Shown here one piece after another: positions 2,561 through 28,197 of a DNA stretch of 41,904 nucleotides (position 1 is its first letter; each line of letters opens with the position of its first letter). The notes under the pieces are model-generated. The model had not been told where the DNA came from, searched no databases, and saw only the letters and a list, made by a program, of their open reading frames with translations. The DNA comes from Pseudomonadota bacterium (GTDB lineage: Bacteria > Bdellovibrionota_B > Oligoflexia > Oligoflexales > CAIYRB01): positions 1 through 41,904 of the forward strand of contig JAPLFY010000106.1 in the NCBI GenBank assembly GCA_026390435.1. Direction: 5' to 3'. A program made the translations under genes and the position numbers.

Positions 2561-2950
2561 ATGGATTCACGCCGGAAAAAATTCGATGACACTGCCAATG
2601 AGCATAACCGATTTTGCAAACAGGTAGGGCGCGTCTGGCTATACCACATCCTGAGTTTTCTTGATTTAGAGCCCGACGCACTCTCCGGGCATTTTGAGCC
2701 ACGGAAGGTACAGACTCTCATCGACTTCTGCGCGGAAAATCCCGAATACCACATCATTAGCTGCAACGATCACAAGATATACAACAAGTATATCCCCAAC
2801 GCTAACTGCTACTACTTGGCAGACGGTGACCAAGATCCGGATCTTTTGTTTGATTTTTCAATGAGATTGAGCGTCGATGAGCTCTTGCAAATAGGGCACG
2901 CAAAGTTTTCGCCCATACTTGGACAGATTAAACACGGTCGCGATTCTTAA
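2561..2950 (+). CDS. Unrecognised protein A, copy 2 of a duplicated convergent pair
   Basis: A 129-residue soluble protein, paralogue of the gene at 863-1246. It keeps the MDS start, the KVG-like and W-x-Y motifs, the HIISC..D..KIYNKYIPNAN core, YYLADGD-x-DP and the C-terminal DELLQIGH and PI-x-G-x-IK patterns. A purine-rich GGGGGAG immediately precedes the ATG. Differences from copy 1 are spread along the protein, so the duplication is not recent. The final 93 nt overlap antisense the end of protein B copy 2. No known domain recognised. The conserved Cys, His and Asp residues of the core could be functional, but no catalytic pattern is evident. Confidence 0.7.
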   Translation: MDSRRKKFDDTANEHNRFCKQVGRVWLYHILSFLDLEPDALSGHFEPRKVQTLIDFCAENPEYHIISCNDHKIYNKYIPNANCYYLADGDQDPDLLFDFSMRLSVDELLQIGHAKFSPILGQIKHGRDS

Positions 2951-3217
2951 TACTTTGCTCTGTTGGTTCCGGAAATCCGTCGTCACTTTGTGGCTATGTA
3001 AGCCCAGCATCACTGTACTTTGCATATAGTCGTTCGAATCTTCTCCATATCTTCGCCAGTAAACGACTTGCAAATAAGAGAATACTGCAAAGGCATCGAA
3101 GTGATCCTCAGGTGTGAAGTCAGACACCAAATCCACCAGAGTATGCATATCTAACGTGTCAAACTGATGAATAGGCCTCCTCAACGAAGTATATCCAACC
3201 AGGGAAGGGATAATCAT
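2858..3217 (-). CDS. Unrecognised protein B, copy 2, convergent with A
   Basis: A 119-residue protein, paralogue of the one at 1169-1519. The shared blocks are PSLVGYTS, HQFD-like QFD, ED-x-FDA, FSYLQ, YWR-x-YGE, VML, LS-x-YGRK and LQELI. It ends three residues later than copy 1, which lengthens the antisense overlap with A to 93 nt. No ribosome binding site as clear as that of copy 1 is seen. No signal peptide or membrane segment. Function unknown; the constant pairing with A is the main clue. Confidence 0.65.
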   Translation of the reverse strand: MIIPSLVGYTSLRRPIHQFDTLDMHTLVDLVSDFTPEDHFDAFAVFSYLQVVYWRRYGEDSNDYMQSTVMLGLHSHKVTTDFRNQQSKVLRIATVFNLSKYGRKLCVPYLQELIDAQSH

Positions 3218-3601: not shown

Positions 3602-4348
3602 ATGACCTTTGGCTTCAACAAATTTACACCGACTTCGCTGCATGCAGCGACTGAGGTGTCCTATTGTCGCCAACTGCTCTCCATAGCCGCAGTCTGCGTT
3701 GTAGCTGTTTGTCACGTCTCGTGTCGTAAACAGACTGTTTCTATAAACGGTCAAAGTGTGAGTTCTACGATCAGTAAGATCAAAGCAAAAACTGCTAAAA
3801 ATCTGCCAGATGGTCCAAAGGGAGCTCCGATTGAATTGCCGAATGCTTTGATTGCGAACCGGACGCACTATCAAACACGAAGCGTGGTGACGTTAAAAAT
3901 CGAGAGCAGCGAAGTATCAGCGGGTGCACCGATTCGGCTTATCTCGGAGACCACACTTAAGGATCTACTCAGTGGTATCGCCGGATCTTTGGGACTTCAG
4001 GAGGCTTCCGGTGACTCGGTAGGGCAGGGTTGGGACACGCAGTTCTTATCTGATGACAGCGGTTTCATTCTGAGGCTGTATCCTACAGATCCCGCGATTG
4101 CTGGTGCGCTTTCCTACGGCGAAAACAAATTGAAACTGCTTGTCGACGAAACAACCGTGCCGAAGATGGCAGTCAATCAAATTTATCTGCAAGATTTTCC
4201 TTACGTGACGATGAGTTTCTCCGCATTCGATACACCAATGCAACAGCAAGGGGGTTTTCAAGCACAGGTTGATTACATTACTGGGTCTACTATCACCAAC
4301 GGCACCTATCAGCTAACCACTGGTAGTGTCGGTCTCCCGAATTGGTAG
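3602..4348 (+). CDS. Predicted lipoprotein paired with the giant fibre protein
   Basis: A 248-residue exported protein of unknown function. A hydrophobic stretch [17 protein letters not shown] ends in a Cys with Ser and Val before it, an imperfect lipobox (His at -3). From ATG 3602 this leaves an unusually long N-region. A GTG at 3656 would give a normal 22-residue lipoprotein signal, but neither start has a well-spaced ribosome binding site, since the GGAAAG touches ATG 3602. The mature part is Ser/Thr/Gly-rich with predicted beta character and ends in GSVGLPNW. Its stop lies inside the next gene (overlap 4342-4348), so translation of the two is probably coupled. A role in anchoring or secreting the fibre is inferred from position only. 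Confidence 0.65.
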
Positions 4349-7300
4349 GGGGGTTGAACATGCGCCACATCGCTTGCATTCTTGGCCTGCTCTACGCGAC
4401 GGTTTTAACCGCCAGCGTAGCGTTGGGGCAGTCGTCGTTCGATTTCGTGGTGAGTGGTCGGATGACAGAGGCAAACGGTAAGCCAGTGGTAGGCCCTGTG
4501 GCGCTTGAAATTTCCTTTTTCCATGACAATCCTGGCACTACTCCCATACTAGCTGTGACGCAGGGTTTTGAAGCTGTGTCCCTGCAGGAGGGCGTCTTTC
4601 AGGTTCGTGTTACCTTGAGTGGCGAAGACTATGGAAAAGTGTTTCCCGACGTAACACAGCCAGTATGGTTTCAAGTAAGTGACTTAACGCACGGCGGAAC
4701 TCCTTATCCACAGCAACAGGTGGTAACGGTACCGTACGCAGCAAGAGTGCCTGTGGACGGTAAAAGCGTCAGCTTCGGCAGCGACGGAAAGCTGATGGTA
4801 GGCCCGAGCACAGGGCCATCAGTGAATCAGTTCTTAACTAAGGACCCTAGCGGCAAAATCGTTTGGGGTACACCCAGTCCTAACTCATCTGCTATTCAAG
4901 GGACAAGCGTACGCTCGGTGTCGCCAGCTCTGGGCCAGGTGCTCAGTTACGACGGCACTATGTGGACGCCGGCCTCTACTACCGTGACTGCAGTGCCCCC
5001 ATTGGCAGTGTCAATGGACGGGTCCACTCCCGTGGTGGCGATGACTCAGGCCACTGGTATTAGCGATGGCTACATTAGCTCCATAGATTGGATGACATTT
5101 TGGTATAAGCAAAATGCGATCAGTTCAGCCTCGAACATCAACATGGGGACCTTGTACACCTATAAACAAAACGGTGTTGAGGTTAAAGCATACGGTAGCG
5201 ATCCTGGTCAAACTGGTGAAGTTCGGTTCAACAGCTTGTCGCCAGGCAATTATGTAGGTTTCAAGGCACCAGATTACGCGATAGGACCGAGGATTTGGAC
5301 CCTACCAGAGACGGATGGTTCGACTGGTCAGCTTTTACGTACAGACGGTGACGGTAAATTGGGGTGGGTGTCTTTACCCATAGTGCCAGTGACCTCGGTT
5401 GCGGGGAAAACGGGAACAATTTCTCTGAACACCAGCGATGTTTCCGAGGGTGCTAACCTATACTTCACCGAGTTTAGGGCTCAATCGACAGCGAGATCTT
5501 CGGTGTCGGCCTATGCTCCTTTAGTTTACTCGCCGACAACGGGATCGATGTCGATTTCGCAGGCATCCGCGGTATCGTCCGGTTATCTATCCGTTCTAGA
5601 CTGGCTTAATTTCAACAGCAAAGTGGGCGCGGTGTTGGCTGGGCCAGGTGTGTTGGTGAGTACTGTCGGCAACAACTCCACCATAGCCTTGCCAAATGTT
5701 GGATCGCCCGGTGTGTATACGAAAGTGACCACGGATCTGCAGGGACGGATTATCGCCGGCACAACCTTAGTACCAGGAGACATCCCCAGTCTATCTGGCG
5801 CTGTGATCACCAGTGGCACCGTGTCTAGAACTTACGGTGGTACAGGTGTGAACTCCGCAGCCACATTCCCAACATCGGGCGTCGTGGTGACTGAAGATGC
5901 AGTAGAAACTTTGACTCGCAAGACTCTGAACAGTCCGGTGATTGCCGCGGGCACTATGAATGGCGCGTCGTTGATTGGTGGCGCCACGACTATTGACACC
6001 ACTGGCACCGTTGCCTCGGGCGCTACAACGGTGCACGGGCCAGTGACTATCCAAAGCACTAGCGACCTACCCAATACTCTTTCATTTAACGATAGCACCA
6101 ATACCAAATCGCTTTCGTTCAAAGCACCAGCCACATTAGCTGCGTCGCTCTCTTGGACATTGCCACCGGTGGAAGGTGGCGTCGGGCAATTACTTGGTAC
6201 CAACGGCTCGGGGACTCTGGGTTGGTACTCGGGTGCTAGGCCTTCTGGTGTAGCTGGCGGAGATTTAGACGGTCAATATCCGAATCCAAGTTTAGCTAAC
6301 TCGGGCGTCGTCCCTGGTGCCTACGCCAAAGTTACGGTTGATGCCAAAGGGCGTGTCGTAACTGGCGGTTCGCTTGAAGCAGCCGACATACCTGGGATCC
6401 CAACGTCTTTGATTCAAACTGGGATGCTTGGTGTCGCCAACGGTGGTACCGGCGTTTCAACTTTTACGGCGAACGGCATACTTTACGGTGGTGGCTCGGG
6501 CAACTTAACATCGACAGCTGCTGGCAGCCCTTATCAGAGTCTTGTTGTTCCATCTGGCGGTGGGGCACCAATTTTTGGTCCGCTGAATCTCGCCCAGCCA
6601 GCTGCCGTCACTGGTTTATTGCCTAGGTCATTGGGTGGTACCGGTGTGCTATCAACGGCAACCTTTCCTGCGTCCGGTGTCGTAGTGACCGAGGGTGCGG
6701 CTCAGACCTTAAGGCTAAAAACTCTGGACAGTCCGCTTATCAGTTCAGCTACCATCGACGGTGCTTCAGTCATCAACACATCTGGTAACATTAGTACCTC
6801 CGGAACCCTGTATTCAGGTGCTCAAACTGTTGCAGGAGATATCACCATTCAAGGCAACGGATACTCGTCCAGTCGCCTTAAAATCAACGATCAGACTAAT
6901 TCGAATTCCCTGTCATTTAAGGCTCCAAATAACTTGGTAGGATCTGTCGAATGGACATTACCCGGTGTGGACGGAGTGGCTAATCAGCTACTAACCACAA
7001 ATGGTGGCGGAGAGCTTAGGTGGGTATCTGGTGCGGCGCCTACTGGGGCCGCTGCTGGTGATTTGACCGGCGCATATCCAAATCCTACTTTAGCCCCAAG
7101 CGGAGTAGTCCCCGGAACTTATCCAAGAGTGGTGGTAGATTCAAAAGGGCGCGTCACTACGGGTACTACGCTAGCAGTGAGTGATATTCCAAGTTTGCCA
7201 GCATCCATTATCACGAGCGGTATCGTACCGGTGACAAACGGTGGTACCGGCGCTAGTAGTCTGCAAGCGAATGGCGTTGTACTCGGAAATAATACGGGTG

Positions 7301-10300
7301 CTTTAACAGCAACACCGGCAGGATCGGCATACCAAATTTTAGCTGTGCCAAGTAGCGGTGGGACGCCTTATTTTACTGCCCTAAACTTATCCCAGGGAGC
7401 TGCAGTTACTGGCGTACTGCCGACATCTTTGGGCGGTACCGGCGTAATATCAACGGCGACTTTTCCAGTAAGTGGCACCGTCGTCACTGAGGCCGGCGCA
7501 GCTACACTGACCAATAAGACGCTGAATAGTGCGGTTCTAAACTCTCCGATGATTGATAGTGCAACGCTCACTGGATTCACCAACGTGAATACTACCGGTA
7601 CGATTGTATCGGGCGCCCAAACAGTGAACGGCAATATTAAAATTCAGGGTAACGGGCTTACCGCCAATCAACTGATTTTAAATGACCTGGGTGCGACTCG
7701 TTCACTAGCATTTAAAGCCCCAGACGTACTCTCGGGCTCAGTAGTGTGGACCCTGCCGGCAACGGACGGTACCGATGGGCAATTACTTATTACCAATGGA
7801 TCAGGAACTTTGGGTTGGGTGTCAGGAACTCGGCCTTCGGGTAACGCCGGTGGTGACTTGACGGGCATATATCCAAATCCAACTCTAAAGGACACCGGTG
7901 TCTCTGCCGGTATTTATACAAAATTGACAGTGGATGCTAAAGGTCGCACTCTGGCAGCTACGACTCTTTCCGTGAGCGATCTACCGAAGATTCCTGCCGG
8001 TCAAATTGATAACGGCATAGTTGCTGTCGACTTTGGTGGTACGGGAGCAAGCCGCTTTACCAAGGACGGAGTGCTGCTGGGTAACGAGGCCGGTAACATT
8101 TTGTCGACTGCGGCTGGGTCGCCTTATCAGAGTCTGATCATTCCAGCGGGAAGTACGACTCCTACATTTGGTGCGGTGAATTTGGCTCAATCCGCTGCAG
8201 TAGTCGGAATCCTGCCAAAAACACTCGGTGGTACCGGCATCAGCTCGGGCGCTGTGTTCCCAACAACTGGCACTGTGGTGACCCGTGAAGCTGCTGAACT
8301 TTTACAGAATAAGACCATTTCTAGTCCCCTGATCACTAATGCCACTATTAACGCAGCATCTGTAATTGGTGGGTCTAGCGTAATCAACACCACTGGAACC
8401 ATCACTTCAAGTAGTCAGGTGGTCAACGGTGATGTGTCCATCCGTGGCAACGGTGCAACTGCAAATAGATTATTCCTTAATGATTTAGGATCAGAGCGAT
8501 CAGTGGCATTGAAGGCTCCTGACACTCTCTCTAACTCGGTAACTTACACCCTGCCAGGCGCCGATGGGTCGGGTGGGCAACTGCTGATGACTAATGGTTC
8601 AGGCACTCTAAGTTGGATTTCTGGCGCTGCTCCAACCGGCACTGCTTCGGGTGATTTGACCGGTTTATATCCTAGTCCCGAACTGACAAACACCGGAGTA
8701 AATGCTGGAACCTTTACCAAAGTAAAAGTGGATTTAAAAGGTCGTGTGTCTCTCGGTACCACTCTTGATGTAGCCGACATCCCAAGTCTACCTGCTTCGC
8801 AGATTTCTACCGGGATCCTTGGTGTCACTCGTGGTGGTACCGGTGCGGGTAGTTTTAATGCAAACGGCGTCGTCGTCGGAGGCAATTCCGGGACATTAAC
8901 TAGTACGACGAGTGGGACAGCATTCCAAAGTTTAACTGTTCCAAGCGGCGGCGGAGCTCCAGTCTTTTCGGCGGTAAATTTATCTCAGTCCGCAGCTGTC
9001 ACCGGCGTTTTGCCTCAGTCCCTGGGTGGTACCGGGGTTATTTCGACTGCGACATATCCGAGCTCAGGCACTGTGGTTACGGAAGCTGCGGCGCAAAACT
9101 TAACTAACAAAACTCTCACCAGTCCAGTCATTAACGCTGGCTCAATAGCTGGTGCGTCAGTGATCGGCGGCTCGACCGTAATCAGTACTTCAGGAACCAT
9201 CACGTCTAGCACGGTTTCCGTGAATGGAGATGTCGTTATCCGCGGTAACGGTGTTACGGCTAAGGCGCTGATGCTCAATGATCTTGGGAACAGCAAGTCC
9301 ATCTCGTTGAAATCGCCAGATGCATTGGTCAACTCAGTGGTCTGGACTCTACCAGGTGCAGACGGTAGCGTTGGTCAGCTTTTGACCACCAGTGGTAGTG
9401 GGATATTAAGCTGGGTCTCAGGAGCGAAGCCGACCGGACTAGCGGGTGGTGATTTGACTGGTGCGTACCCAAATCCAACGTTGCCTGCGACCGGTGTGGG
9501 TGCAGGTCAATATCAGAAAGTTACGGTTGATGAGAAAGGGCGAGTGATCGCAGGTACCTCGCTTGACGTGGCAGACATTCCGGCACTGCCAATTAGTAAA
9601 CTTGGGTCTGGCAGACTAGACGTGTCGTTGGGTGGTACTGGTACTAATAGTTTTACCGAAAACGGTGTTTTGCTAGGCAATAATTCTAGCAATATTTTCT
9701 CAACTGCCGCGGGCTCAGCCGATCAGATTTTGCGCGTCCCATCGGCAGGCGGGATGCCTTCGTTCGGGGCTATGGATTTGTCGAAGGGCGCGGCAGTTAC
9801 CGGAGTCTTGCCGACGGGCCTCGGTGGCACCGGAGTGGTTTCGACCGCCACCTATCCGACCACTGGGGTAGTTTCTACTCGCGCTGGTGTGGAAACCTTC
9901 ACCAATAAGACTTTGACCAATCCGCTTATAAACGGCGGCACCATAGCCGGATCTGCGTTGATAACCGGTGATACCGCCATTGATACCGCTGGTACCATCA
10001 GCGCCGCGGCTACAACTATCGCTGGTGATATAACCATTCGCGGCAATAGCGTCACACCTAATAAACTTGTGTTTAACGATAAAGGTAGCGTCAATTCTGT
10101 ATTCTTAAGAGCTCCGGCCGATGTGACCGGCACTTCCATAGGATGGACGCTGCCCAATTCGCTCGGTGCTAATGCTCAGCTCTTAACGACGGATGGAACT
10201 GGTGCTTTGAGCTGGGTTTCCGGTGCCGCGCCTACAGGAGCAGCAGGTGGCGATCTAACGGGCAATTATCCCAACCCGACCCTGGGGATTACAGGCGTCG

Positions 10301-13300
10301 GTGCTGGAACTTATACAAAGGTTCGGGTCGATCTGAAGGGACGAGTGCTTGAGGGGACTTCCCTTGCAGTAGCTGACATCCCAAGTCTGCCTGCTTCGAT
10401 CATCAACACGGGCCTACTTGGGGTGAACCGTGGTGGTACAGGAGCGGCAGCCTTCAATAGTCTAGGTGTTGTCTTTGGCAACAGCGGCGGAAGCTTGTCG
10501 AGCACGTCTGCGGGTGGGGCTTACCAAAGTTTAACGGTGCCAGCGGGTGGTGGCGCACCGGTATTTAGTGCCGTCAACTTATCGCAAAGTGCTGCCGTCA
10601 CTGGTGTGCTGCCGCAAGGTGTAGGTGGTACGGGTGTCAGTGGCAACGCTACATTTCCGACTAGCGGTGTGGTCGTAACGGAATCTGCAACAGAGACTTT
10701 AACTAATAAAACGCTGACGGCTCCGGTGATTGCTTCCGGTCTCATCAACGGGAATTCTGTCATCGGTGGTAACTCAACGATCAATACCACCGGCACTATT
10801 AACGCTGCAGCCACCACAATCAACGGTAACCTAACGGTACAGGGCAGCGGCACTTATGCGAACAAGTTGGTACTGAACGACAAAGGCTCTAGCAACTTTG
10901 TAGCTTTAAAAGCCGCTGAAAACATGTCTGGTCAGGTCACCTTTACCCTCCCGAGTGCTGACGGCAGTTCTGGTCAGTTGTTAGTGACAAGTGGCACTGG
11001 AGCTTTGTCTTGGGTTTCCGGTGCGTCGCCTAGTGGAAACGCTGGCGGTGATTTAACTGGTGCCTATCCTAGCCCAACTCTCACCGCTACGGGTGTTTTG
11101 GCTGGTACCTACCAGAAGGTCGTTGTCGATCTCAAAGGACGGGTATTAACCGGATCAAATTTGGCGGTCGCTGATATTCCGACCCTTCCAGCTTCCATCA
11201 TCGGATCCGGTGCAGTAGCCGTTGCTAACGGTGGTACAGGCTTCAATAGCTTCACCAGCAATGGTGTCATCATCGGTAACGGGCCGAGTAATTTGTTAAG
11301 TACCGCGGCAGGTGCCGCGTTCCAAAGTTTGCGAGTCCCAAGCACTGGTGGCGTCCCATCGTTCGGGTCCATTGATTTATCGCAGACTGCTGCAGTTACC
11401 GGTATTTTGATGCCTATCCTTGGTGGTACCGGTGTCAGTTCTTTTGCCACCTTCCCAACCTCGGGTGTGATTGTTACGCAAAATGCTACCGAAACTCTGT
11501 TCAACAAAACCCTGTCTAGTCCGATTATCTCGGCTGGTACCATCTCGGGAGCCTCGCTCATAGGCGGGACCACGAACATTGCAACGTCAGGGACAATCAG
11601 CGCAGGTGCTACCTCAATTGTAGGAACGCTAAATATCAAAGGCACCGGCTCAAGCACTAATATATTAGCATTTAGTGATAGCACTAATTCTAAGTACGTG
11701 GGTTTCAAAGCTCCCGACGTGGTCCCAGACCACATCATTTGGACGCTTCCGGCAACCGACGGCGGTGTGGGTCAAATGTTGACGACTAACGGGTCCGGAG
11801 GGCTTAACTGGGTATCGGTGGCGCAAAATATGGGTGCTGCTGGTGGAGACCTGTTTGGTGCATATCCAAATCCAACATTGATAGCCACCGGAGTTACCGC
11901 CGGCACCTACCAAAAGGTTTCTGTCGATAGTAAGGGCCGCGTTTTGTACGGGTACTCTTTATCGGTACTCGATATTCCTAGTCTACCTGCTTCGATTATC
12001 GGATCCGGGGTGATACCGGTAGCTAATGGTGGTACCGGCGGAGCTTCTTTCCCAAGTAACGGTGTGGTGATAGGTAACGGCTCAGGTAGTCTAACTGGTA
12101 GTGCTGCCGGTGCAGTCTATCAAAGCCTGACAGTTGGAGCTGCCGGGGCACCTTCGTTTAGCGCGGTCAATTTGTCTCAGTCCGCAGCGGTGACTGGAAT
12201 CTTGCCAGCGACTGCAGGCGGTACTGGGACCATGTCAAACGCCGTCTTCCCAACTACTGGCACTATCGTTACAGATGCCGGCACTGCGACTTTGACAAAT
12301 AAGACCTTAAACTCAGTCGTAATCGCGTCCAGTACCGTGAACGGTAATTCTCAGATCGGCGGAGCGACAGTTATCAATACCTCCGGCACTATCACCTCCG
12401 GGTCGACCACGGTCAATGGTAGCGCGACTATCCGTGGTGATGGTACTTTGGCAAACAGATTAGTGTTTGGTGATAAGGGGACCGGCTTTTCCGTATCTTT
12501 AAAAGCTGCAGACACATTGGCAAGCTCAACGGTATTCACGTTGCCAGTAGCCGACGGCACTTCCGGCCAGATACTCTCCACCAATGGCTCCGGTGCTCTT
12601 GGCTGGGCGTCGTCAGCACCGCCGTCTGGTGCAGCTGGCGGTGATTTGACGGGAGCTTATCCAAACCCGAGTTTAACGCCATCTGGCGTAACTCCTGGGA
12701 CTTATCTGAAAGTCATGGTTGATGCCAAAGGGCGGGTCACTGATGGGACTAATTTGTCGGTATCAGATATTCCAAGTCTGCCCGCATCGATCATTGCGTC
12801 TGGGATCATTCCAGTTGGGAACGGCGGTACGGGGGCTTCGACATTCACTCAATACGGTGTCCTTTTTGGGAACAATATTGGCAGCATCAATTCCACAGCT
12901 GCTGGTTCGGCATTCCAAAGTTTGACAGTACCGGCCGATGGCACCGCGCCTTATTTCAGCGCGGTAAACTTAGCGCAGCCAGCAGCAACCACAGGAATAC
13001 TGCCTAGTACATCGGGTGGTACTGGGATCAGTTCTGTGGCCACTTATCCAAGCTCTGGCATCATTGCGACCAGGGCTGCCACCGAAACGCTGACTAATAA
13101 GACCTTAACCTCTCCGCTGATTAACAGTGGTACTATTGCTAGCGCGTCTTTGATTACTGGTTCGACAGTCATAAACACCACCGGAAGCATAACCTCTGGT
13201 GGGGTGACATCTAATGGTAACGTTCAATTAAAGAGCTCCAACGGTAGTACGGCTAGCCGCCTCGTATTTAGCGATAGTTCGGCGACGTTCTCACTATCAT

Positions 13301-16300
13301 TTAAGTCTCCTGATACACTCTCTACGTCGGTAAATTGGACTTTACCTGGTACCGATGGTGCTACTGGGCAACTACTCACTACCAATGGTTTGGGTACTCT
13401 ACAGTGGGTGACGGGAGCAGCGCCGAACGGCACCGCTGGCGGTGATCTCATTGGTAGCTATCCAAATCCAACGCTGGCAACGGTCGTGACGGCCGGCACC
13501 TACCAAAAAGTCCGCGTTGATCAAAAGGGTCGCGTGACTGCCGGCATGAGTCTACTCGTCGCCGATATCCCAAGTTTACCAATTTCTATCATCGGATCGG
13601 GAGTGCTTAGCGTCGGCAATGGTGGTACCGGAGCTGATAACTTCGCCAACAACGGTGTCATGCTTGGCAACGGCACCGGTAACCTACTATCGACCGGCGC
13701 CGGTACTGCCTATCAAGTGCTGACGGTGCCGAGTAATGGTTTAGTGCCATCATTCGGAGCGCTAAATTTAAGCCAGTCAGCTGCAGTGACAGGTATTCTC
13801 CCGACATCTGTGGGTGGTACCGGAGTTACCTCCTCAGCGGTATTCCCAAGTAGCGGTACTATTGTGACCCAGTCCGCAACAGAGACTTTGCTGAATAAGA
13901 CTTTAAGTAGTTCCGTATTCAATGCTGGCTCGGTCATAGGGGCGTCGGTGATTGGTGGTTCGACGACCATTAACACGACGGGTACAATAACTGCTGGCTC
14001 AACGACAGTCGGCGGTAGTTTGACTGTTCAGGGCTCCGGACTGAATTCGAATCGTTTAGTGCTGAACGATAAAGGATCTACTTACGCCGTCTCTTTAAGA
14101 GCTCCAGACACGCTGTCATCTTCGGTAGCCTGGACCTTGCCGGGTAACGACGGCATTAACGGTCAACTTCTAAGCACCAACGGATCGGGGGCTTTAGCCT
14201 GGGTTTCCGGAGCTACTCTGATTGGCAACGCCGGTGGTGATTTGGTGGGCGCTTATCCAAGTCCTACTTTGACGACGACTGGTGTGACAGCGGGCACTTA
14301 TACAAAAGTTACCGTCGATGCAAAAGGCCGCGTGCAGCTCGGTGCTAACTTGAGTGTGTCAGATATCCCAAGTCTACCTGTGTCGATCATCGGTTCAGGA
14401 CAATTGGGTGTTGCGAATGGTGGTACCGGATTTAGCAGCTTTACTCAGAATGGAGTCGTGCTTGGTAACGGTGTCAGTAATTTGTTTACGACAGCGGCTG
14501 GTACTGCTTACCAAAGTCTGGTGATACCAAGCAATGGTGGAGCACCATCATTTAGCGCTGTAAATCTTGCTCGCTCGGAAGCGGTCACAGGCATCCTTGC
14601 GACAGCCAACGGTGGTACCGGTGTTGCTTCGTCAGCAACGTTCCCGTCAACAGGCGCAATTGTGACGGATATCAGTACGCAAAATCTGACCAATAAAACC
14701 CTGACTGGTGCAATAATATCAGCAAGTACAGTGAATGGAGCGTCCTTAATTGGCGGCTCCACCGTCATCAACACGTCAGGCTCGATCACAGCCGGTGCGG
14801 CCAACTTAACTGGTGACGTCGGGATCCGCGGTACAGGTTTGGCATCGAACAGGTTGATGTTTAATGATCGTGGTAGCACGAATTTTGTCGCCTTTAAGGC
14901 CCCAGATGTCTTGGCATCTTCCGTTGTGTGGACGTGGCCAGGTAGCGAGGGAAGTAGCGGTCAACTGCTCACCACTAACGGATCCGGAGTTTTGGGTTGG
15001 GTTTCTGGTGCGGCTCCGAGCGGTGCAGCAACCGGCGATTTGACGGGTAATTATCCGAGCCCAACTCTAACCACAACTGGAGTTGCGGTTGGTACTTACC
15101 AAAAAGTAGCAGTCGATCTCAAAGGTCGAGTATATTTCGGAAGCAGCTTAACTGTAAGCGATATTCCAAGTCTGCCTATGTCCATAATTGGGTCAGGGGT
15201 CCTGCCACTAGCCAATGGCGGTACCGGTTCTACTAGTTTCACGGCCAATGGAGTGGTCGTTGGCAATGGCAGCGGAAGTCTCTTCACGACAGGAACTGGT
15301 CAACCATATCAGAGTTTAATGGTTCCTTCTGGTGGCGGTACGCCAGCATTTGGGGCAGTGAATTTAGCGCAGCCTTTGGCGATCACTGGCGTCTTGCCCG
15401 TAAGCGCCGGCGGTACAGGTATAGCTTCCGGGGCAACCTTCCCAAGTTCGGGCGTGATCGTGACACAATCGGCAACGGAAACTTTGATCAACAAAACGCT
15501 AACCAGTCCAGTGATCAGCGCGGGCACGATAAACGGTGCCTCTCTGATCACAGGTACCACTTCGATAACTACATCGGGCGCGATTAGTTCTGGAGCGATC
15601 AGTGCCCTTGGAAGTGTCACTATCCGCGGCGACGGCACCCTAGCAAACAAACTAATTTTGCGGGATAAGGGCACAACGAACTTCCTCGCTCTCAAGGCAC
15701 CAGATTCGCTGGTCAGCTCCACCACTTGGCAGTTGCCTGACACCGATGGTGCCGATGGTCAAATGCTTAAGACCAATGGTCAAGGAATTTTAAGCTGGGT
15801 CACCGGATCCGCACCAAGTGGCAGCGCTGGTGGCGACTTGACCGGAAATTATCCAAGCCCAACGCTCACTACGACCGGAGTGTCGGCTGGTATTTATTCT
15901 AAAGTGACAGTAGATACCAAGGGTCGAGTGAGTGCAGGTACTAGTTTGAGTATTTCTGATATTCCTAATCTGCCGGCTTCGATTATTGTTTCGGGCTCAG
16001 TTGGGGTTGCCAACGGTGGTACGGGCACGGCGTCCTTTAGCACCAACGGTGTCATACTTGGTAACGGGATAGGCAACCTATTCTCCACTTCGGCTGGTAG
16101 TGCATACCAAAGCTTAAGCATCCCCTCGGGTGGTGGAGTACCGACCTTTGGTGCGATTAATTTGGCTCAATCTGCTGCAGTAACTGGTCTACTACCAACG
16201 ACCTCTGGTGGTACTGGTATGGCGTCGAATGCTATCTTCCCGACTGTCGGTACCATTGTTACGCGGGACGCCAGCGAAACTTTATCGAATAAGACTTTAC

Positions 16301-18408
16301 TCAGCCCACAAATTTCGGCTGCGACTATCGACGGTGCTTCGACTATCGGTGGCTCTACCGCCATCAATACAACGGGCACCGCGGCGATGGGGGCTACGAC
16401 TATCGCCGGCAATTTGACGATTTCCGGCACTAACACTGCAGCCAATCGCCTGATTCTGAAAGACAAAGGTCCTACCAACTCACTGTCACTGAAAGCTCCT
16501 GATACGCTGACTACATCGGTGGTGTGGACTCTGCCTGGAAGCGACGGATCGAGCGGCCAACTGTTGCAAACCAATGGCTCGGGTGCTCTGAGCTGGGTGG
16601 CTGGTGCAGCTCCAACTGGTGCCGCTGGTGGTGATTTATACGGCGTTTATCCAAATCCGACTCTGACAACTACGGGCGTTGTGGCTGGTACTTATCCTAA
16701 AGTGGTAGTTGACGCTAAAGGTCGCGTGTCGAGTGGCTTGGCCCTTGCGGTGTCAGACATTCCAAGTCTACCGATGTCTCAGATCGGTTCGGGCACACTA
16801 GCCGTAGGCAATGGTGGTACAGGGAACACTAACTTCAGCTCAAACGGGGTTTTGCTCGGTAATAGTAGCAGCAATATTTTCTCAACCTCAGCCGGCAGCG
16901 CCTATCAGGCTCTAACCGTACCATCCGGCGGTGGCACGCCTTCTTTCGGTGCTTTAAATCTTGGTCAGTCTGCTGCTGTGACAGGAACATTGGCCGTAGG
17001 TAACGGTGGTACCGGCATAGCAACGGCACCAGGTAACGGTAATATTTTGATCGGCAACGGTGTTAATTATACTCTGACTACTTTGACTGCAGGGACTGGT
17101 GTTTCCATCACCAACAGTTCTGGCGCAATCACCGTGGCGGCAACTGCGGACGCCTCTACCAAAGTTAGTAAAGCTGGCGACACGATGACCGGCGCATTAA
17201 CTCTGCCTAGCAACGGTCTGACGGCCGGTACTAACCAATTAGTAGTATCCGGTGGTAACGTCGGTATCGGTACCGCTTCGCCCGCTGCGACCATGCAACT
17301 TTATAAAACTACCAACGATAGTTCAATTTACGAAATATCTAGATTCACTGCATTTAATTCCAGTGCCACTAGCCTTCGAATCCAAGGTGGTAGCTCTGAT
17401 ACTAACTTAGCCTTGCGTCAAGTGAGTTTAGACTCCTACCGTACCGATACAAATGCGGCGCCAATTCTCTTTACGCAAACTGTAAGCGGTGGAACCACTG
17501 AGCGGATGCGGATCGCGGCATCCGGTAATGTGGGCATCGGCGCATCAGCGCCAAATAACAAACTCGATGTGGCAGGATCTCTAGCCATCGGTGCTACCTA
17601 CGGCGGTGGAACCTCGACAAGTGGCAGTATAGCACCGACCAACGGGTTGATCGTACAAGGCAACGTTGGCATCGGGACGACGGCGCCAGTATCGCAGTTG
17701 GATGTCGGCGGTAGTAAATCAGCTGCTCCCAGCCTAACTGGTGCCTATCTAGGATTCTCTAGCCCAACCTTCACCGACAATGCCACTGGGTCAAATTCGA
17801 CCACTGGGAACATGGCATTCAATGCAATAGGCGCCCCGGTCTTGGCTTCGACAAGTGCTGCAGTGATCACGACGAATGCCTACACGGCTTACGTCGCCGG
17901 CGCACCGAGAAAGGGCAGCAACAACACTGTGACCAACGCAGTGGCTTTGGGCATTGGCGCTACAGCCGTCGGTGCCCAGACTAATAGCTACGGTCTTTAT
18001 GTGAACGCACAGACTGGTGCGAACTCTAATTATGCGGCGGTCTTCCAGGGCGGTTATGTGGGTATCGGTACGACTGCTCCAGCAGCGGCCTTGGACGTCA
18101 ATGGCCACGTCGGCAACTCAAGCACAGCGGTGCCAACTCTAAGCAATTGTGGAGCAAGTCCTGTGATTGTTGGTAACGACACTCGGGGCACTGTGACCTT
18201 CGGCACGAGCGCCCCAACTGACTGTACCATCAACTTTGCTACCGCGTACGCCAACACCCCAGTTTGCGTGGTCACGTTCACTGGTGATACTAACATCAAC
18301 ACAGGCAGCTTGAATGTTCGGATTAGTGCAGCCACTTCGCTTGCATTCACGATCAGTCTAGCGTCTGGCCAAAGCTCGATTTCCTTTAACTACATCTGTA
18401 TGCAGTAA
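4342..18408 (+). CDS. Giant repetitive tail-fibre-like surface protein (4688 residues)
   Basis: A secreted fibre. Residues 1-30 form a signal peptide (hydrophobic run ending ALGQSS). Residues about 31-140 form a head domain starting [17 protein letters not shown], like the N-termini of other fibre-like proteins in predatory and soil bacteria. From about residue 495 to 4220 there are 14 tandem units of about 266 residues, each with two GGTG motifs, a NKTL-x-SP segment, a V-x-WTLP segment, one GGDLTG-x-YPNPTL motif, a KVTVD-x-KGRV turn and SDIPSLP. After the array come [15 protein letters not shown], several VGIGTTAP-x4-LDV-x-G stalk turns and a knob with three Cys ([22 protein letters not shown]) ending YICMQ. 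GGDLTG and VGIGT motifs are known from phage tail fibres and large bacterial adhesins. No LPXTG, autotransporter barrel or type I secretion signal is visible, so the export route is unclear. It is translationally coupled to the upstream lipoprotein. Adhesion or prey/host contact is inferred. Confidence 0.85.
5830..17010 (+). repeat. Tandem array of 14 coding repeats, period about 798 nt
   Basis: Anchoring on the GGDLTG-YPNPTL motif gives 14 hits near 6256, 7051, 7849, 8647, 9445, 10246, 11044, 11842, 12637, 13438, 14233, 15031, 15829 and 16627. The separate TFPTSG-VVT motif gives 14 hits from 5862 to 16234 with the same spacing. The period is 798 nt with changes of a codon or two. No two units look identical in DNA: synonymous positions vary widely while the protein motifs hold, and GGTGGTACCGG recurs at most GGTG motifs. 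Confidence 0.9.
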
Positions 18409-23318: not shown

Positions 23319-23450
23319 CATGGGGTCGGGCACTGGCGCTAAGCTAATGAAAGCCATAGATCTTTTGTAGCCATGTTTTGTGGTGTTCTAATGGTGTCGA
23401 TGAGTTGCTGGAAGTGCCCGACCCCATGTCTGCTAGTGCCTGACCCCATT
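23319..23450. repeat. REPIN-like element: three ATGGGGTC-type units, two inverted
   Basis: CATGGGGTCGGGCACT (23319-23334) has an exact 16-base inverted copy at 23413-23428, and a third unit (23435-23450, AGTGCCTGACCCCATT) follows in the inverted orientation with two differences. The outer pair could fold into a long hairpin with a 78-base loop. The 5' arm begins just after the mazF stop, and the third unit encodes the last residues and stop of the cytochrome peroxidase gene. This matches the doublet layout of REPINs; the IS200-like transposase that would move it is not in the window. Confidence 0.7.
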
Positions 23451-24899
23451 AAGGTCCCGGACGGACGAAGACAACGAGTTTAGAAATGCCGCCAAGGCCT
23501 CGAGTTCTTCACCGGTGAATCCGAGTGGGTGCAGCGCGGGATCGCGTTGTCCAATCGCTGCCCGATCGGTTAGCTCGTTATAATAGGCTAGCGTCGTCTC
23601 TAGAGTGGTGAAGCGTTGGTCATGCATAAATCTTTGGCGGTGCGCGAGATTGCGTAGACTTGGGGTTTTAAATGCGCCCAGATTGCGTATGTCCTCGGTA
23701 TTCAGGGTTGTGATGTCGGCGCAGTCGCTTGCTTCGCGGCGTAGTTTTTGTCCAAACGGCCCGATGCAGTTGAATGGATTGGTGAGGGCGCGGACACTGC
23801 CAACGGCGCGTCCGCCCATGATGGTCTCACCAAGCTGGGAAAGGCCGCTATTATGGAACTTCTGATCGGTGAGCGTCGCACCGCTGTGGCAACTGAGGCA
23901 CTTTCCGGGGCCGACAAATAATTTTAAGCCAATGAGTTCGTGATCGGTGAAGCCATCGCCGAGAGCCGCTGCCGCAGGAATATTCTCACGCCAACGATCG
24001 GCAAATCGATCAAATGCAGAGTCGAATGCTACTAACCCTCGCAGGTAGCTGCCGATAGCGACACCGACATTAGCGTACACTTGATTCACTGCGGCTATGT
24101 GAGCCGGCGACATTTTTTCATAGGCTGCGACCCATCCTGGCGGTGGGGGCGCCCGATCAAATGCGCGCCTTGAGAGTTCTAGGGCAGGTGCAAGATGCTC
24201 ACCGATCGCCTTGCTGATAATGCTATCTAGCAAATGAGAATCGCCCATAGAAGCGAGTCCGGCCGCAGCTACATTGACCTCCCACTGCAGCGGTGGCGGC
24301 GCAGGTAGGCCCGCCGAGGGTAGCGCGTCGGGATCGAGTAACTCGCCGGGTAGATTGCCAAATACAGCTTCATAATCACGGCGCCAGGGACCGAGCATTT
24401 GTTTAACTATGAAAAGTCGTGAACTAGCCATGTGCGTGGGGTCTTCCAGCGCAGCGAGTGTTGCGGCTCCGACACTGTCGGTATCGCCGCTACTGCCGAA
24501 CCAGTGAGCAAAGCGCAGGTTAACTAGCTGCGGCAAGGTGGGCCTTGCAACTGTCAAAGGTGTCGGACTAGCGTGACAGCTGGCGCAGCTCATGTCGCCG
24601 TTGGGTGTTAGGTCACTCGAATGAAAAAGCTTACGTCCCAGTTGTGCCGCGCGGCCATCCGAGCTGGAACTGCTGGCCCCCGGAACCAATGGGATGCTAA
24701 ATCCCGGTGCGCGCAAGCTGCCAACGATGGGGTAGAGCTCGGTATCCAATATGGGGAGGTCGCGAATGCGGGGGCCGGGATCAGGTAGGAGCAGGTAAAG
24801 CAAAGCGATGCCTAGAACTGGCAGCAGAGCGATAGCGATGGGTCGCCAGCGTCTCTTGCCAATCTGCACGTTTTGTCGGCGAACTGTGCGTTGCAGCAA
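23433..24899 (-). CDS. Di-haem cytochrome c peroxidase / MauG-like protein
   Basis: A predicted periplasmic, membrane-anchored electron-transfer enzyme that may reduce hydrogen peroxide using cytochrome c electrons. An N-terminal anchor (RRWRPIAIALLPVLGIALLY) is followed by two c-type haem sites, CASCH (about residue 103) and CLSCH (about 332). The region between carries FAHWFGSSGD and a GPWRRDYEAVFG segment, and the C-terminus has TPSLRNLAHRQRFMHD, a pattern common in this superfamily. I chose the TTG at 24899 because GGAGGA lies nine bases upstream; the first possible GTG at 24923 has that site inside its own coding region. The last codons (LNGVRH) and the TAG come from a dispersed repeat unit. 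Whether it is a true peroxidase or a MauG-like oxidase cannot be told here. Confidence 0.85.
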   Translation of the reverse strand: MLQRTVRRQNVQIGKRRWRPIAIALLPVLGIALLYLLLPDPGPRIRDLPILDTELYPIVGSLRAPGFSIPLVPGASSSSSDGRAAQLGRKLFHSSDLTPNGDMSCASCHASPTPLTVARPTLPQLVNLRFAHWFGSSGDTDSVGAATLAALEDPTHMASSRLFIVKQMLGPWRRDYEAVFGNLPGELLDPDALPSAGLPAPPPLQWEVNVAAAGLASMGDSHLLDSIISKAIGEHLAPALELSRRAFDRAPPPPGWVAAYEKMSPAHIAAVNQVYANVGVAIGSYLRGLVAFDSAFDRFADRWRENIPAAAALGDGFTDHELIGLKLFVGPGKCLSCHSGATLTDQKFHNSGLSQLGETIMGGRAVGSVRALTNPFNCIGPFGQKLRREASDCADITTLNTEDIRNLGAFKTPSLRNLAHRQRFMHDQRFTTLETTLAYYNELTDRAAIGQRDPALHPLGFTGEELEALAAFLNSLSSSVRDLNGVRH

Positions 24900-25077
24900 C
24901 TCCTGATCTCCTCCAAGCAGCACCCGTCTCTTTAGCTTAACGGTCTAACCCACCCGAAAGCCAGGTAAATTCAATGTTTGATTCAACCGCGACGGCTTAG
25001 GGTTGCTCCGGCCCCACTTCGCGACTATAACTCGGCCTTTGCTAAGCAGATTCGGTTGCGCGAAACGAGATCGAAAT

Positions 25078-25380
25078 ATGGCGACGAGCGGAGACAGCAA
25101 TAGTGCGGTAGACAGGTGGCCATTTCGGCTTATCTGCTCGCTCTTAATTGCCGTAACCTGCATCGAGTGGCTGCTTTTTGGCCTAAGACAGGCGTTAGGC
25201 TTAGCTTCGTCAGCGCTGGTGGCTTTGATGCTTGGCCTAGCGCTCGCTAAGTTCATGGCGGTGGTCGCTTGGTTACTTGGGCGGGTGGTGACTACCACCC
25301 TCCCTCAGAAGTCATTCTTATTCATGGTGGTGTTGAGTGGCGGTGCCACCATCGCTATGCTGGTGCTGGCCGGCATCTAA
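25078..25380 (+). CDS. Small three-helix membrane protein, possibly oxidase subunit IV-like
   Basis: A protein of 100 residues with about three hydrophobic helices: FRLICSLLIAVTCIEWLLFG, SALVALMLGLALAKFMAVVA and FLFMVVLSGGATIAMLVLAG. The Lys-containing middle helix and its place beside the cox genes recall prokaryotic cytochrome oxidase subunit IV-like proteins, but the usual FMHL-type motif is absent, so this is tentative. ATG 25078 gives a sensible N-terminus; the frame is open back to 25003. The last 63 nt overlap antisense the end of the PCu(A)C gene. Confidence 0.55.
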   Translation: MATSGDSNSAVDRWPFRLICSLLIAVTCIEWLLFGLRQALGLASSALVALMLGLALAKFMAVVAWLLGRVVTTTLPQKSFLFMVVLSGGATIAMLVLAGI

Positions 25381-25815
25381 CTCGCCGGGTCCGCGAGCGA
25401 CCGCTTCGGTTTGGATAGAAGCACCGCCCTCCAGATGCACAGTCACCTTAATCTTGGCTCCTGTTTTTAATGCGGGTAGAGCGCCAAAGACCATGGCGTG
25501 ATTGCCGCCTGGGGCTAAAGTTACCGTGGTCTTCGGGTCGAGTTTCAGCTGCGGCAAGGGCTCCATACTCATCATGCCCTTGGCATCGGTCGTGCTCTGA
25601 TGCATTTCGGTGCGATTGGCGCCTTCCACGCTGATCTTGGTAATGGTTTGTGCGGTTGTGCTAGTGTTTTCCGCAGTGAGATACAGCGCTGTCACCTTTG
25701 CACCTGGGGGAGGCACGCGTATCCAGGCCGAGCTTATTTTCAGGCCTTGGCCGGCGAACAATGCGGGCGTGTGCAGTGCGGCGGTGATTAGTAAAGCTAG
25801 CTTTGTGATGTTCAT
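25318..25815 (-). CDS. pccA: Periplasmic copper chaperone PCu(A)C
   Basis: It binds Cu(I) in the periplasm and passes it to SCO and the CuA site of subunit II. A signal peptide (cleavage after ALFAG) precedes a 140-residue domain with the family ligands: Met71, His72, Met81/82/84 and His106-x-Met108 in GGNHAMVFG. The C-terminus is a His-rich tail (GQHQHSDGG, TQHHHE) likely to hold extra metal. GGAG lies six bases before the ATG, inside the end of the SCO gene only one base upstream, so the two chaperones are co-translated. The tail is encoded antisense to the last membrane helix of the convergent small gene. Confidence 0.9.
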   Translation of the reverse strand: MNITKLALLITAALHTPALFAGQGLKISSAWIRVPPPGAKVTALYLTAENTSTTAQTITKISVEGANRTEMHQSTTDAKGMMSMEPLPQLKLDPKTTVTLAPGGNHAMVFGALPALKTGAKIKVTVHLEGGASIQTEAVARGPGELDAGQHQHSDGGTATQHHHE

Positions 25816-25816
25816 G

Positions 25817-26449
25817 TCAGACTCCGGTACTTAAAATATCGCGCAGGGCGTCGCTAAGGTCGCCTGGTGCTTGTGGTGGAGATAGCGTCTTTGCCACGGT
25901 ACCGTCAGGTTTTAGTATGAAAAAAGCCCCGCTATGGACGATGGTGTAGTTTGGGAATTCACCTGGAGTTGTCCCTGGCTTTGCTGAATCAGGCTGCACC
26001 TCGTAGAAGACGCCAAGCTTTTTTGCCAGTTCACTTAAGTTGTCGGCTGTGCTTGTCGCTCCGATGATTTGCTTATCAAAAGCTGCGACGTATTGTTTGA
26101 GTACTTCCGGGCGGTCTCGTTGTGGGTCGACGGAAATAAAAACCGGCTGTACACGATGTGCGAGGTCGCCGAGGGAGCGTAGCTCTTTTGATAAGTAAGC
26201 CAGTGACATCGGGCAAACATCGGGACACGATGCGTAGCCAAAGAACAGCACGGTCCATTGCTGGGGCCATGCCGCCAATGTGAACGATCGCCCGTCTCCG
26301 TCCGTCAATGGAATGTCAATGACACGACTATGGCTGGTGCCCGTGGCCTGGCCATTTGTGTCAGCCAGTTTGTTCACGAGCAAGAAGCCGCCAATCGCTA
26401 CAGCAACTATAATTGGGAACATAACTAGATTTTTCCGACCCATATTCAA
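25817..26449 (-). CDS. SCO1/SenC-family copper chaperone for cytochrome oxidase
   Basis: A membrane-anchored thioredoxin-fold protein that delivers copper to CuA of subunit II and/or reduces its cysteines. An N-terminal anchor (FPIIVAVAIGGFLLVN) is followed by FFGYASCPDVCPMSLAYL with the copper-binding CPDVC, VSVDPQRD-like SVDPQRDRPE, and the third ligand His in TIVHSGAFF. The frame begins at TTG 26449; ATG 26443 is the likelier start (AAAGGG ten bases upstream, against four for the TTG). It is divergent from the cytochrome-oxidase operon and coupled to pccA. Confidence 0.92.
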   Translation of the reverse strand: MNMGRKNLVMFPIIVAVAIGGFLLVNKLADTNGQATGTSHSRVIDIPLTDGDGRSFTLAAWPQQWTVLFFGYASCPDVCPMSLAYLSKELRSLGDLAHRVQPVFISVDPQRDRPEVLKQYVAAFDKQIIGATSTADNLSELAKKLGVFYEVQPDSAKPGTTPGEFPNYTIVHSGAFFILKPDGTVAKTLSPPQAPGDLSDALRDILSTGV

Positions 26450-26667
26450 ACGACCCTTTCACTATGATCCTAGCGTCATACCGCGATGGAGCTATCGCTG
26501 TCCAGTCATGCCAAGGTACTCTGCGGCGCCTGGGTACTGCCTGCAAATTACGCAGCTCATAAAAAAAGTTTGTCATCACGCAAGGTCTTTGTTGTTTGTC
26601 GCCTCATGTGAGATTATCTTACTTGGCATCGTGGATTACCTTTTTGACCTTGGTCATTGGTGCATAG
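26450..26667 (+). promoter_or_regulatory. Divergent intergenic region driving sco-pccA and the cox operon
   Basis: No gene is supported in these 218 bases. For the plus direction a weak sigma70-like pair, TTGTTG, 17 bases, GATTAT (about 26591-26619), precedes the cytochrome gene by about 50 bases. I see no clear operator. Hexamer assignment is by eye and tentative. Confidence 0.3.
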
Positions 26668-27312
26668 ATGATCAAATCTGCCTTTCGTATCGTAACTTTC
26701 ACCGCTCTCTTCGTCGGTTTCATGCCGCGCGCCTTTGCGTGGGATAATGACCGGCCTGCTGAGCTTTACAAGCTTTGTACCTCGTGCCACGGCATCGATG
26801 GTGCGGGCAATCAACCGGTCGGGGCTCCGTCTATCGCGGGGCTGCCGGAGTGGTACTTGGAGGCGCAGCTGACCAAGTTCCACACCAGCGTTCGCGGTGG
26901 TCACGTCAAGGATATCAATGGCATGCGCATGCGGCCGATTGGTTTGACCTTGAATGAGGAGAATCGCAAGACGGTGGCAAAGTTTGTGTCGGCCATGCCG
27001 CGCCCGAGTACGCCAGACACCGTCAAGGGCAAGCTCGCCAAAGGCGAGGGCACGTACCAGGTGTGTCAGGCTTGTCACGGGCCACAGGCTGCGGGCAATC
27101 AAGCGCTGAATGCGCCGCCACTCGTTGGCGCCAATGATTGGTACTTGCTCACGCAGTTGAAGAATTTCAAAAACAAGATCCGTGGATACGATCCCGCCAA
27201 AGACCCTAACGGGTACGCGATGGCAGGTATTGCCGCGACTTTGGATGATGACGCGATGCTAAATGTGGTGTCGTATATCAACTCATTCAAGCCGGAACCA
27301 GTAGCTAAGTAA
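26668..27312 (+). CDS. Periplasmic di-haem cytochrome c (c4-like)
   Basis: A 214-residue exported cytochrome with a signal peptide ending PRAFA and two class I haem sites, CTSCHG (Cys37, His41) and CQACHG (about 132). Each half carries a Met sixth-ligand candidate (GMRMRPIGLTL and GYAMAGIAATL) and a W-Y-L-x-x-QL-x-x-F pattern, so it is an internal duplication as in cytochrome c4. It opens the cox operon, 23 nt ahead of the next small gene. Subunit II here lacks a fused haem c domain, so this protein is the probable electron donor to CuA. Confidence 0.88.
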   Translation: MIKSAFRIVTFTALFVGFMPRAFAWDNDRPAELYKLCTSCHGIDGAGNQPVGAPSIAGLPEWYLEAQLTKFHTSVRGGHVKDINGMRMRPIGLTLNEENRKTVAKFVSAMPRPSTPDTVKGKLAKGEGTYQVCQACHGPQAAGNQALNAPPLVGANDWYLLTQLKNFKNKIRGYDPAKDPNGYAMAGIAATLDDDAMLNVVSYINSFKPEPVAK

Positions 27313-27335
27313 CGCGCTTTGAGGGGGATTCAGAC

Positions 27336-27437
27336 GTGGTTGCACAAGACCCAGATGTCACGGCAAAAAAGTTATTTTTTACTATCGTTGGTTTAGTCGT
27401 GGCTTTCGCGGCAGCAGTTATCATATTCGTTCTGTAA
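27336..27437 (+). CDS. 33-residue single-helix membrane peptide in the cox operon
   Basis: GTG 27336 is preceded by AGGGGG with an eight-base spacer, and the frame reads MVAQDPDVTAKKLFF, then one membrane helix VGLVVAFAAAVIIF, then VL and TAA. It fits exactly between the cytochrome c gene and coxB. Tiny one-helix subunits or assembly factors are common in haem-copper oxidase operons (for example CcoQ- or CtaH-like peptides), but I cannot name this one. The Lys-Lys before the helix suggests an N-out or N-in orientation set by the positive-inside rule. Confidence 0.6.
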   Translation: MVAQDPDVTAKKLFFTIVGLVVAFAAAVIIFVL

Positions 27438-27471
27438 GGCCCGTTTCAGCGGAGGCAGCAGGTAAGTCACT

Positions 27472-28197
27472 ATGATGGAATCACTCATCGCAGCAGCGTC
27501 GTCTTATGCTGGGCAGATCGATCAGGTCACCCATGTCGTGGCAATACTGGGTGGCTTTTGGCTGCTTTTGGCAGAAGCTGCTCTGTTCTACTTCGTATTC
27601 AGGTATCGCCGCTCGCGCAGTCCCAAGGCCCAGTACATTACTGGCGAGACCAAGCAACAGATGAAATGGATCCACTGGCCACACAATCTTGTGTTGCTGT
27701 GTGACATTGTCATTTTAGTTTTCGCGGTACGCGCTTGGTATCACGTCAAGCAAGAGATGCCTCCGACCGACGATGAAGTACGCGTCGTCGGCCACCAGTG
27801 GGCTTGGGAGTTTGTCCACTCCGGTCCGGACGGTAAGCTTGGCACCGACGACGATGTGTCGGTGGTCGACGAGCTTCACCTGATCGTGAACAAGACTTAT
27901 AAATTCAAGCTCGAAGCGGCGGACGTGCTGCACAGCTTCTCTATTCCGGTATTCCGCTTCAAGCAGGACGCGGTTCCTGGGCGGCAAATTTCCGGTTGGT
28001 TCAAACCCACAAAGACGGGACAGTACGACGTGCCGTGCTCGCAGATGTGCGGTATCGGACACGGCATCATGGGCGGTCAGGTGTATGTACACACTCCTGA
28101 AGAATACCGTCAGTGGTTAGACTCAAAAGCACCGAAATCTGCGGCCTTGCCGGTTGAAGGTTTGGATCGCATCGCAATGAATCAGGGTGGGATGTAA
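27472..28197 (+). CDS. coxB: Cytochrome c oxidase subunit II (CuA)
   Basis: It accepts electrons from cytochrome c at the binuclear CuA centre. Two N-terminal membrane helices (about 20-50 and 70-95) precede a periplasmic cupredoxin domain carrying ADVLHSFSIPVF (His ligand), QDAVPGR and CSQMCGIGHGIM (both Cys, His and Met ligands). The motif has Gln where the more common CSE has Glu; that ligand acts through its backbone. An insertion SGPDGKLGTDDDV sits before the conserved VDELHL segment. At 241 residues it ends after the cupredoxin domain, with no fused cytochrome c. A two-base gap separates it from coxA. Confidence 0.95.
   Translation: MMESLIAAASSYAGQIDQVTHVVAILGGFWLLLAEAALFYFVFRYRRSRSPKAQYITGETKQQMKWIHWPHNLVLLCDIVILVFAVRAWYHVKQEMPPTDDEVRVVGHQWAWEFVHSGPDGKLGTDDDVSVVDELHLIVNKTYKFKLEAADVLHSFSIPVFRFKQDAVPGRQISGWFKPTKTGQYDVPCSQMCGIGHGIMGGQVYVHTPEEYRQWLDSKAPKSAALPVEGLDRIAMNQGGM

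Follow-up and report, generated by a model that had tools for sequence, protein, structure and literature searches.

What does a bacterium of a lake make when one gene encodes a whole giant fibre, and what could hold such a fibre at one length? The question is raised by a window of 41,904 nucleotides (the whole stretch of DNA analysed here), in which the frame 4342–18408 on the plus strand is both open and closed. We label the window's own genome G000 and the related genomes G001 to G005. The initial annotation gave a single-gene fibre of 4688 residues, and the frame is indeed real, but that length is counted from a TTG. ATG 4360 is the likeliest start because it has a G-rich ribosome-binding site just 5' and its position is conserved in two congeners, and the predicted fibre is then 4,682 aa. 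There are no in-frame stops across these 4,682 codons. The parts of the gene, and the gene just upstream of it, are listed in Table 1.

The same annotation gave the fibre its own signal peptide, and we agree. By eye, the leader has a basic n-region, a hydrophobic stretch and an AxG/AxA site, and its position is conserved in two orthologues, where cleavage falls between AQA and QSS and between AMA and QSS.

Table 1. Features of the fibre locus, with positions in the window.
Feature	Position	Strand	Remarks
Putative lipoprotein gene, 248 aa	3602..4348	+	Ends about 12 bp before the fibre ATG; operon partner
Giant fibre gene	4360..18408	+	4,682 aa, about 457 kDa
Fibre signal peptide	4360..4428	+	Recognised by eye; predicted cleavage between ALG and QSS
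Conserved N-terminal beta-rich domain	4435..4776	+	Candidate cell-proximal anchor; 24 genome copies, alignment, AlphaFold2 pLDDT 81.6
Head region with partial units	4777..6255	+	Contains the second half of a unit (5812-6255), directly before unit 1
13 complete units, 265-267 residues each	6256..16626	+	From motif spacing
14th unit, diverged and truncated	16627..17265	+	From the consensus match
C-terminal region	17152..18171	+	Four VGIGTxxPxxxLDV-like motifs (17254, 17524, 17659, 18052), as in MAT beta-helices
C-terminal tip, about 78 aa	18172..18405	+	Holds three of the four C-terminal Cys

The 266-residue unit array

The motif GDLxGxYPxP occurs 14 times in the fibre, at spacings of 266, 265, 266, 266, 267, 266, 266, 265, 267, 265, 266, 266 and 266 residues. 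The count of 14 near-regular units thus holds for the motifs, but only 13 of the units are complete and the 14th is truncated. Residues 1–218 of that last unit matched a constructed consensus query at 55% identity; it is 71% identical to its own orthologue in G001 and 36–44% to the other G001 units. The paired GGTG motifs had also been described as nearly constant in spacing, which is what we find: there are 29, and the distances between them alternate between 63–64 and 201–203 residues.

Self-identity at a lag of 266 is 44.2%, and the maximum over 100 shuffles at all lags from 20 to 799 was 11.9%, so the period is far beyond chance. Among themselves, the window units share 50–64% identity in protein and 55–63% in DNA, and 61 of 268 columns are invariant in an alignment of the 13 window units. 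The longest exact DNA repeat in the array is 18 bp. With units this divergent and exact repeats this short, collapse or expansion during short-read assembly is unlikely, and we conclude from the sequence that the array is ancient, neither a recent duplication nor a collapsed assembly. An AlphaFold2 model of two adjacent units, run as one chain with 17 sequences, reached a pLDDT of 49 and a pTM of 0.21, values too low to speak for or against independent globular domains.

Phage-like modules and kinship with MAT fibres

The unit matches PHROG 7389, a tail-fibre family, at E 3e-72, and 49 of the 50 units scanned match it. A profile of the unit matches the fibre gp28 of cyanophage P-SCSP1u (E 2e-8) and, weakly, the tail-fibre chains 6cl5 and 6cl6. 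Shared with PHROG 7389 and gp28 are the modules GGDLxGxYPxP...VDxKGR, DIPxLxAS..SGxLxVxxGGTG, NKTL and KAPDxL..TLP..DG..GQLLxTNGxGxLxW. Going by these matches, the unit is composed of phage tail-fibre modules. Together with the motif spacing, the PHROG and gp28 matches bear out the description of the fibre as unusually long, regular and secreted, and built of such modules. Unlike phage tail fibres, it has a signal-like leader and a chromosomal setting, and the modules are locked into a 266-residue unit that occurs from 14 to over 30 times in a row.

We looked for the intact unit elsewhere. Five phage records match it and none of the five covers 80% of its length; among plasmids there is one match, spanning 18%. 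IMG/VR holds 198 loci that encode relatives, and we took the best 80. Among the matches listed from these, the longest query span is 117 of 266 residues (141–257), and most are far below that. The GDL motif is found in 49 of the best 80 loci and occurs more than once in 13 frames, where the spacing is mostly 50–60 residues, with others at 126 and 353, and never 266. At E <= 1e-40, the intact unit is found in 6 of the 58 phylum genomes searched, all in one genus of 30, and the sequence searches show the intact unit to be restricted to one genus among those 58. No published description of a 266-residue fibre array was found within the single literature library that we searched.

The N-terminal domain is much more widespread than the unit. 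There are 24 copies in the window's own genome, after signal-like leaders, and six of the seven family genomes have it (24, 46, 11, 19, 35, 6 and 0 copies, with 46 in G001). By profile, it is present in 11 of the 58 phylum genomes. The AlphaFold2 model of this domain consists mostly of strands. Foldseek gave no match to the model at E <= 0.001, and the best VIA-align result, Z 7.7 (4yok, rmsd 3.4 A, 85 residues), is in the range of a common arrangement only.

Among known systems, the mosaic adhesive trimer (MAT) superfamily of Bdellovibrio bacteriovorus is one of the closest to the window fibre. In the published account, all 21 MAT fibres have a domain after the signal peptide, tips are variable and 13 of the 21 carry S74; the N-terminal domain is suggested to keep the fibre attached to the surface of the predator, the fibres tested are located on the cell surface, and one member has been demonstrated to bind prey glycan (PMC10769870). 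The window fibre has the same order of a signal peptide and a beta-rich N-terminal domain (about 130 aa in MAT and about 114 aa here), a likeness that we judge by place and size. It is likewise one of about 20–25 genes per genome that have a fibre body and swapped tips with and without S74.

In the window's own genome, we found 21 frames with fibre motifs, of 453–1,947 codons, in twenty regions; 8 of the 21 are cut 3' by the end of the stretch. Seven of these frames were searched against Pfam: the C74 frame matched S74, the C105 frame matched Lcl_C, the C25 frame had a sub-threshold match to FGE-sulfatase, one had a sub-threshold DUF only, and three had no match. The N-terminal domain is not visible in the C74 or C105 frames. 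The genome has nine S74 matches, one of them within a gene that holds the 266 unit, namely the C74 frame with its S74 C-terminus. By sequence, then, we find a multigene family with diversified C-terminal tips, including S74 and non-S74.

For the last 447 residues of the window fibre there were only three PDB matches, the chains 8oml (5.6e-6), 8on4 (5.6e-5) and 8ond (“bd2133”, 1e-3). All three are Bdellovibrio MAT-type structures, so the C-terminal region matches solved MAT tips by sequence and appears to have beta-helical segments of MAT type, although the matches are motif-driven with modest E-values. VGIGTxxP and GGTG motifs are frequent across bacterial and phage fibres, and matches based on them are therefore weak evidence for one family. 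The Bdellovibrio MAT N-termini had no match in the PDB. For the tip (18172..18405), there was no sequence match in the PDB; with its Cys, it is a probable adhesive or capping element. When the entire fibre was queried in one piece, nothing in the PDB matched at E up to 1.

Searches of the fibre protein against Pfam (E up to 1) and NCBIfam (E up to 0.1) found no YadA-type barrel, RTX repeats or T9SS C-terminal domain, and the predicted product does not show these features of trimeric autotransporters, RTX/type I adhesins or type IX adhesins. We dismissed whole-fibre Pfam matches to Glutaminase (9e-4) and MraZ (0.11), both under the curated cut-offs, as composition noise. We identified no outer-membrane export system for the fibre.

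The window fibre is probably a MAT relative. It differs from the known MAT fibres in being several times their typical length of about 1,000 aa, in belonging to another lineage, and in having a regular 266-residue array of conserved number and a paired lipoprotein gene.

Neighbours, orthologues and larger paralogues

The 248-aa product encoded directly upstream looks like a lipoprotein from its sequence, but it had no confident match in Pfam. In three congeners, its leader diverges and the sequence after the Cys (SC-RKQ) is conserved. In G001 (73%) and G004 (92%), an orthologue immediately precedes the fibre gene. A search for the family gave 13 matches in six of the seven genomes, which we split into eight close and five distant ones by the post-Cys sequence, a division drawn after viewing the matches. 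A fibre N-terminus is directly downstream in six of the eight close loci (the window, G004 C3, G001 C34, G002 C15, G005 C144 and G005 C101), with the limits that the lipoprotein frame of G005 C144 contains a stop and the fibre of G005 C101 is a fragment near a contig end. The fibre is not downstream in the other two, G002 C119 and C218, nor in any of the five distant loci. One distant homologue (28%) is at G000:C152 20000-28945 (L174), on a contig that also has S74 chaperone matches. We believe that the lipoprotein may be an anchor or an assembly factor for the fibre. The suggestion that the fibre lacks an anchoring domain is not borne out in that form, as the family-wide N-terminal domain, a candidate anchor, is present and the conserved lipoprotein gene is adjacent.

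The other neighbours of the fibre are genes for patatin, DsbD, MauG, PCuAC, SCO1, a cytochrome and cytochrome oxidase, and the patatin, DsbD, MauG, SCO1 and cytochrome flanks are conserved in G001. A copper/haem redox cluster (MauG, PCuAC, SCO1 and the cytochrome oxidase genes) adjoins the fibre at 23433-32496, and the stretch from MauG to the cytochrome gene is also downstream of the G001 orthologue.

There are some further observations on the region. The window has two copies (851-1519 and 2561-3217) of a convergent, tail-overlapping pair of ORFs, of about 130 aa on the plus strand and about 117 aa on the minus strand, which had no Pfam or PADLOC match; several more, at 47–60% identity, precede the fibre orthologues of G001 and G004. 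At 38990-41796, a DUF4143 AAA ATPase matches the PADLOC candidate defence family PDC-S01 (E 5e-114), and a HipA-like kinase gene adjoins it. Stretches from two genomes of the same class have a low G+C of 26–34% and gave no useful matches to plasmids; an Oligoflexia-type placement is no more than a guess. No 16S gene was detected in the window's own genome.

Contig C34 of G001 carries the fibre orthologue, whose open frame runs to 4,701 codons. The window and G001 proteins are 4,682 and 4,688 aa long and share 68% identity across 4,678 aligned residues, with gaps that total 14 residues, 10 and 4 in the two rows. Synonymous differences are saturated (pS 0.78). The orthologue carries 14 units, all in register with those of the window. 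When the units are compared pairwise, identity averages 67% along the diagonal of the matrix and 53% off it; the same-numbered unit is the best match in 14 of 14 columns (the G001 units) and in 13 of 14 rows, the exception being row 8. With units in register, nearly equal lengths and saturated synonymous sites, it follows that the number of units and the length were held while the sequence drifted. Against the closer congener G004, where a contig end cuts the orthologue and the comparison covers 1,574 aa, the dN/dS of the fibre is 0.083, and that of the upstream lipoprotein gene is 0.084. These sequence comparisons show the window fibre gene to be under purifying selection.

There are also far longer genes made of the same unit type. 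In G001, contig C20 (L096-L098) has a closed single frame of 12,490 codons, and a frame on C18 (L093-L095) is at least 15,097 codons long and runs off its contig. A paralogue of 9,481 codons on contig C24 of the window's own genome also runs off. Its units 5–28 are in register with those of G001 C20 in 22 of 24 rows, and the other 8 of 32 rows are off that diagonal. The corresponding 3' end, followed by the same neighbours, is on contig C106 of that genome, and the two contigs therefore probably carry opposite ends of a single gene. The giants on C24, G001 C20 and G001 C18 are not among the lipoprotein–fibre pairs. Nine stretches that we inspected, which cover G002, G003, G005 and one more gene of G004, all run off their contigs.

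In the 14 longer paralogue units that we examined, length grows by steps of about 37 residues (to 303, 340 or 341), and each step is one extra NKTL cassette. Stepped lengths of 266, 303 and 340 were seen in first units only, in G000:C24, G001:C20, G001:C18 and G004:C240. Motif spacings in the giants are sometimes irregular, at 606, 607 and 535 and also at 256, 263, 269 and 273; the first three are probably about two units with one motif missed. A gene of almost identical length in a sister species, and related genes of three times that size, suggest a giant contact filament whose length is fixed.

Readings of the fibre

We consider it probable, with some room for doubt, that the gene encodes a secreted adhesive filament of the cell surface, of the “mosaic fibre” kind and MAT-like. 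The signal peptide would take the fibre to the periplasm. The conserved N-terminal beta domain would then remain cell-bound, with the lipoprotein from the adjacent gene as a possible tether, and the 13–14 phage-fibre-like units would build an extended shaft in which three chains probably intertwine. The small Cys-containing tip would make the contact, and the unit count would set how far the filament reaches.

The most serious competitor, which we think has a real if lesser chance, is a genuine filament with no role in prey recognition, either a non-adhesive structural or coat protein or an adhesin for particles or biofilm in a non-predator. A scan of contigs placed 43 loci that have the N-terminal domain in four unclassified assemblies, and giant surface proteins are known from a bee symbiont that is not a predator (PMC12863079). 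Against this, the constant N-terminus, the fibre body, the swapped tips and the many paralogues are the build of MAT fibres, which include the member that binds prey glycan (PMC10769870).

A role inside the envelope is quite unlikely. A ruler or scaffold that crosses the envelope, or runs along the cell instead of pointing outward, would fit a fixed unit number and length and a lipoprotein gene upstream, but a filament of 180–330 nm (estimated below) far exceeds the width of the periplasm, and the related MAT fibres that were tested are at the cell surface (PMC10769870).

We give still less credence to a tail fibre of a prophage or of a phage-derived particle. The PHROG tail-fibre matches, and sub-modules common to phage records and viral contigs, are what it would predict. 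The signal-like leader is conserved in the fibre orthologues, though, and the gene lies beside respiratory and redox genes whose order is partly shared with G001, with no phage structural genes among its neighbours; nor does any of the five matching phage records, or any of the 13 multi-motif frames from the best 80 of 198 viral loci, have the unit at 80% coverage or the GDL motif at 266 residues, respectively.

An artefact of assembly or gene calling (a repeat wrongly collapsed or expanded, or a pseudogene in decay) can be set aside as extremely improbable: the genome is a draft of 153 contigs and several paralogues break at contig ends, but the exact repeats are short, the frame is free of stops, and a separate genome has a 4,688-codon orthologue with its units in register, in a gene with a dN/dS of 0.083.

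Two other groups of large proteins are worth comparing with the adhesive surface filament that we favor. Giant1–5 of Apilactobacillus kunkeei are extracellular proteins of 3,000–8,000 residues (PMC12863079), and the window fibre is likewise an extracellular bacterial protein in that range, by prediction; Giant1–4 differ in having a beta-solenoid N-terminal domain, a comparison made by description only (PMC12863079). The larger paralogues fall in the class of huge proteins of more than 5,000 aa, such as those of Omnitrophota, and differ from the latter as described in that their length is built from one tail-fibre-like unit (PMC11573180).

Reach and meaning

In published MAT fibres, 370 residues span 142 A and about 781 residues span about 550 A, or 0.38–0.70 A per residue (PMC10769870), and we estimated the length of the filament from these figures. 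If the window fibre is of that kind, it would be 179–328 nm long, and the 12,490-codon paralogue would be 475–872 nm. The earlier proposal of hundreds of nanometres is thus plausible by residue count, provided that the fibre is a trimer. Our verdict, drawn from sequence, is that this is a real, conserved, giant and genus-specific fibre that appears to work like a MAT fibre or a tail fibre and stands out by its size and its conserved number of units, and its length may be a selected ruler.

A broader idea, which we offer tentatively and regard as rather unlikely in its entirety, is that the genus has a class of single-gene filaments of fixed length, made of the 266-residue block repeated from 14 to more than 30 times, with the unit number kept constant from species to species as a ruler, a reach for each rank and a lipoprotein anchor for the shortest. 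If this is true, the reach would be 0.2–0.3 um for the window gene, 0.5–0.9 um for the 12,490-codon paralogue and possibly 1 um for the paralogue with at least 15,097, and these would rank with the longest protein filaments that a bacterial cell builds from one gene. The fibre of the window would by itself carry the MAT idea, of phage-like fibres with which bacteria make contact with one another, beyond a length of about 55 nm to one of hundreds of nanometres. The paired lipoprotein would be a concrete candidate for the anchoring partner in a fibre class whose attachment to the cell surface the authors of the MAT account leave open (PMC10769870). And the window gene and its G001 orthologue, with an unchanged unit number at saturated synonymous sites, offer a natural experiment on whether an array of repeats can act as a ruler of fixed length.
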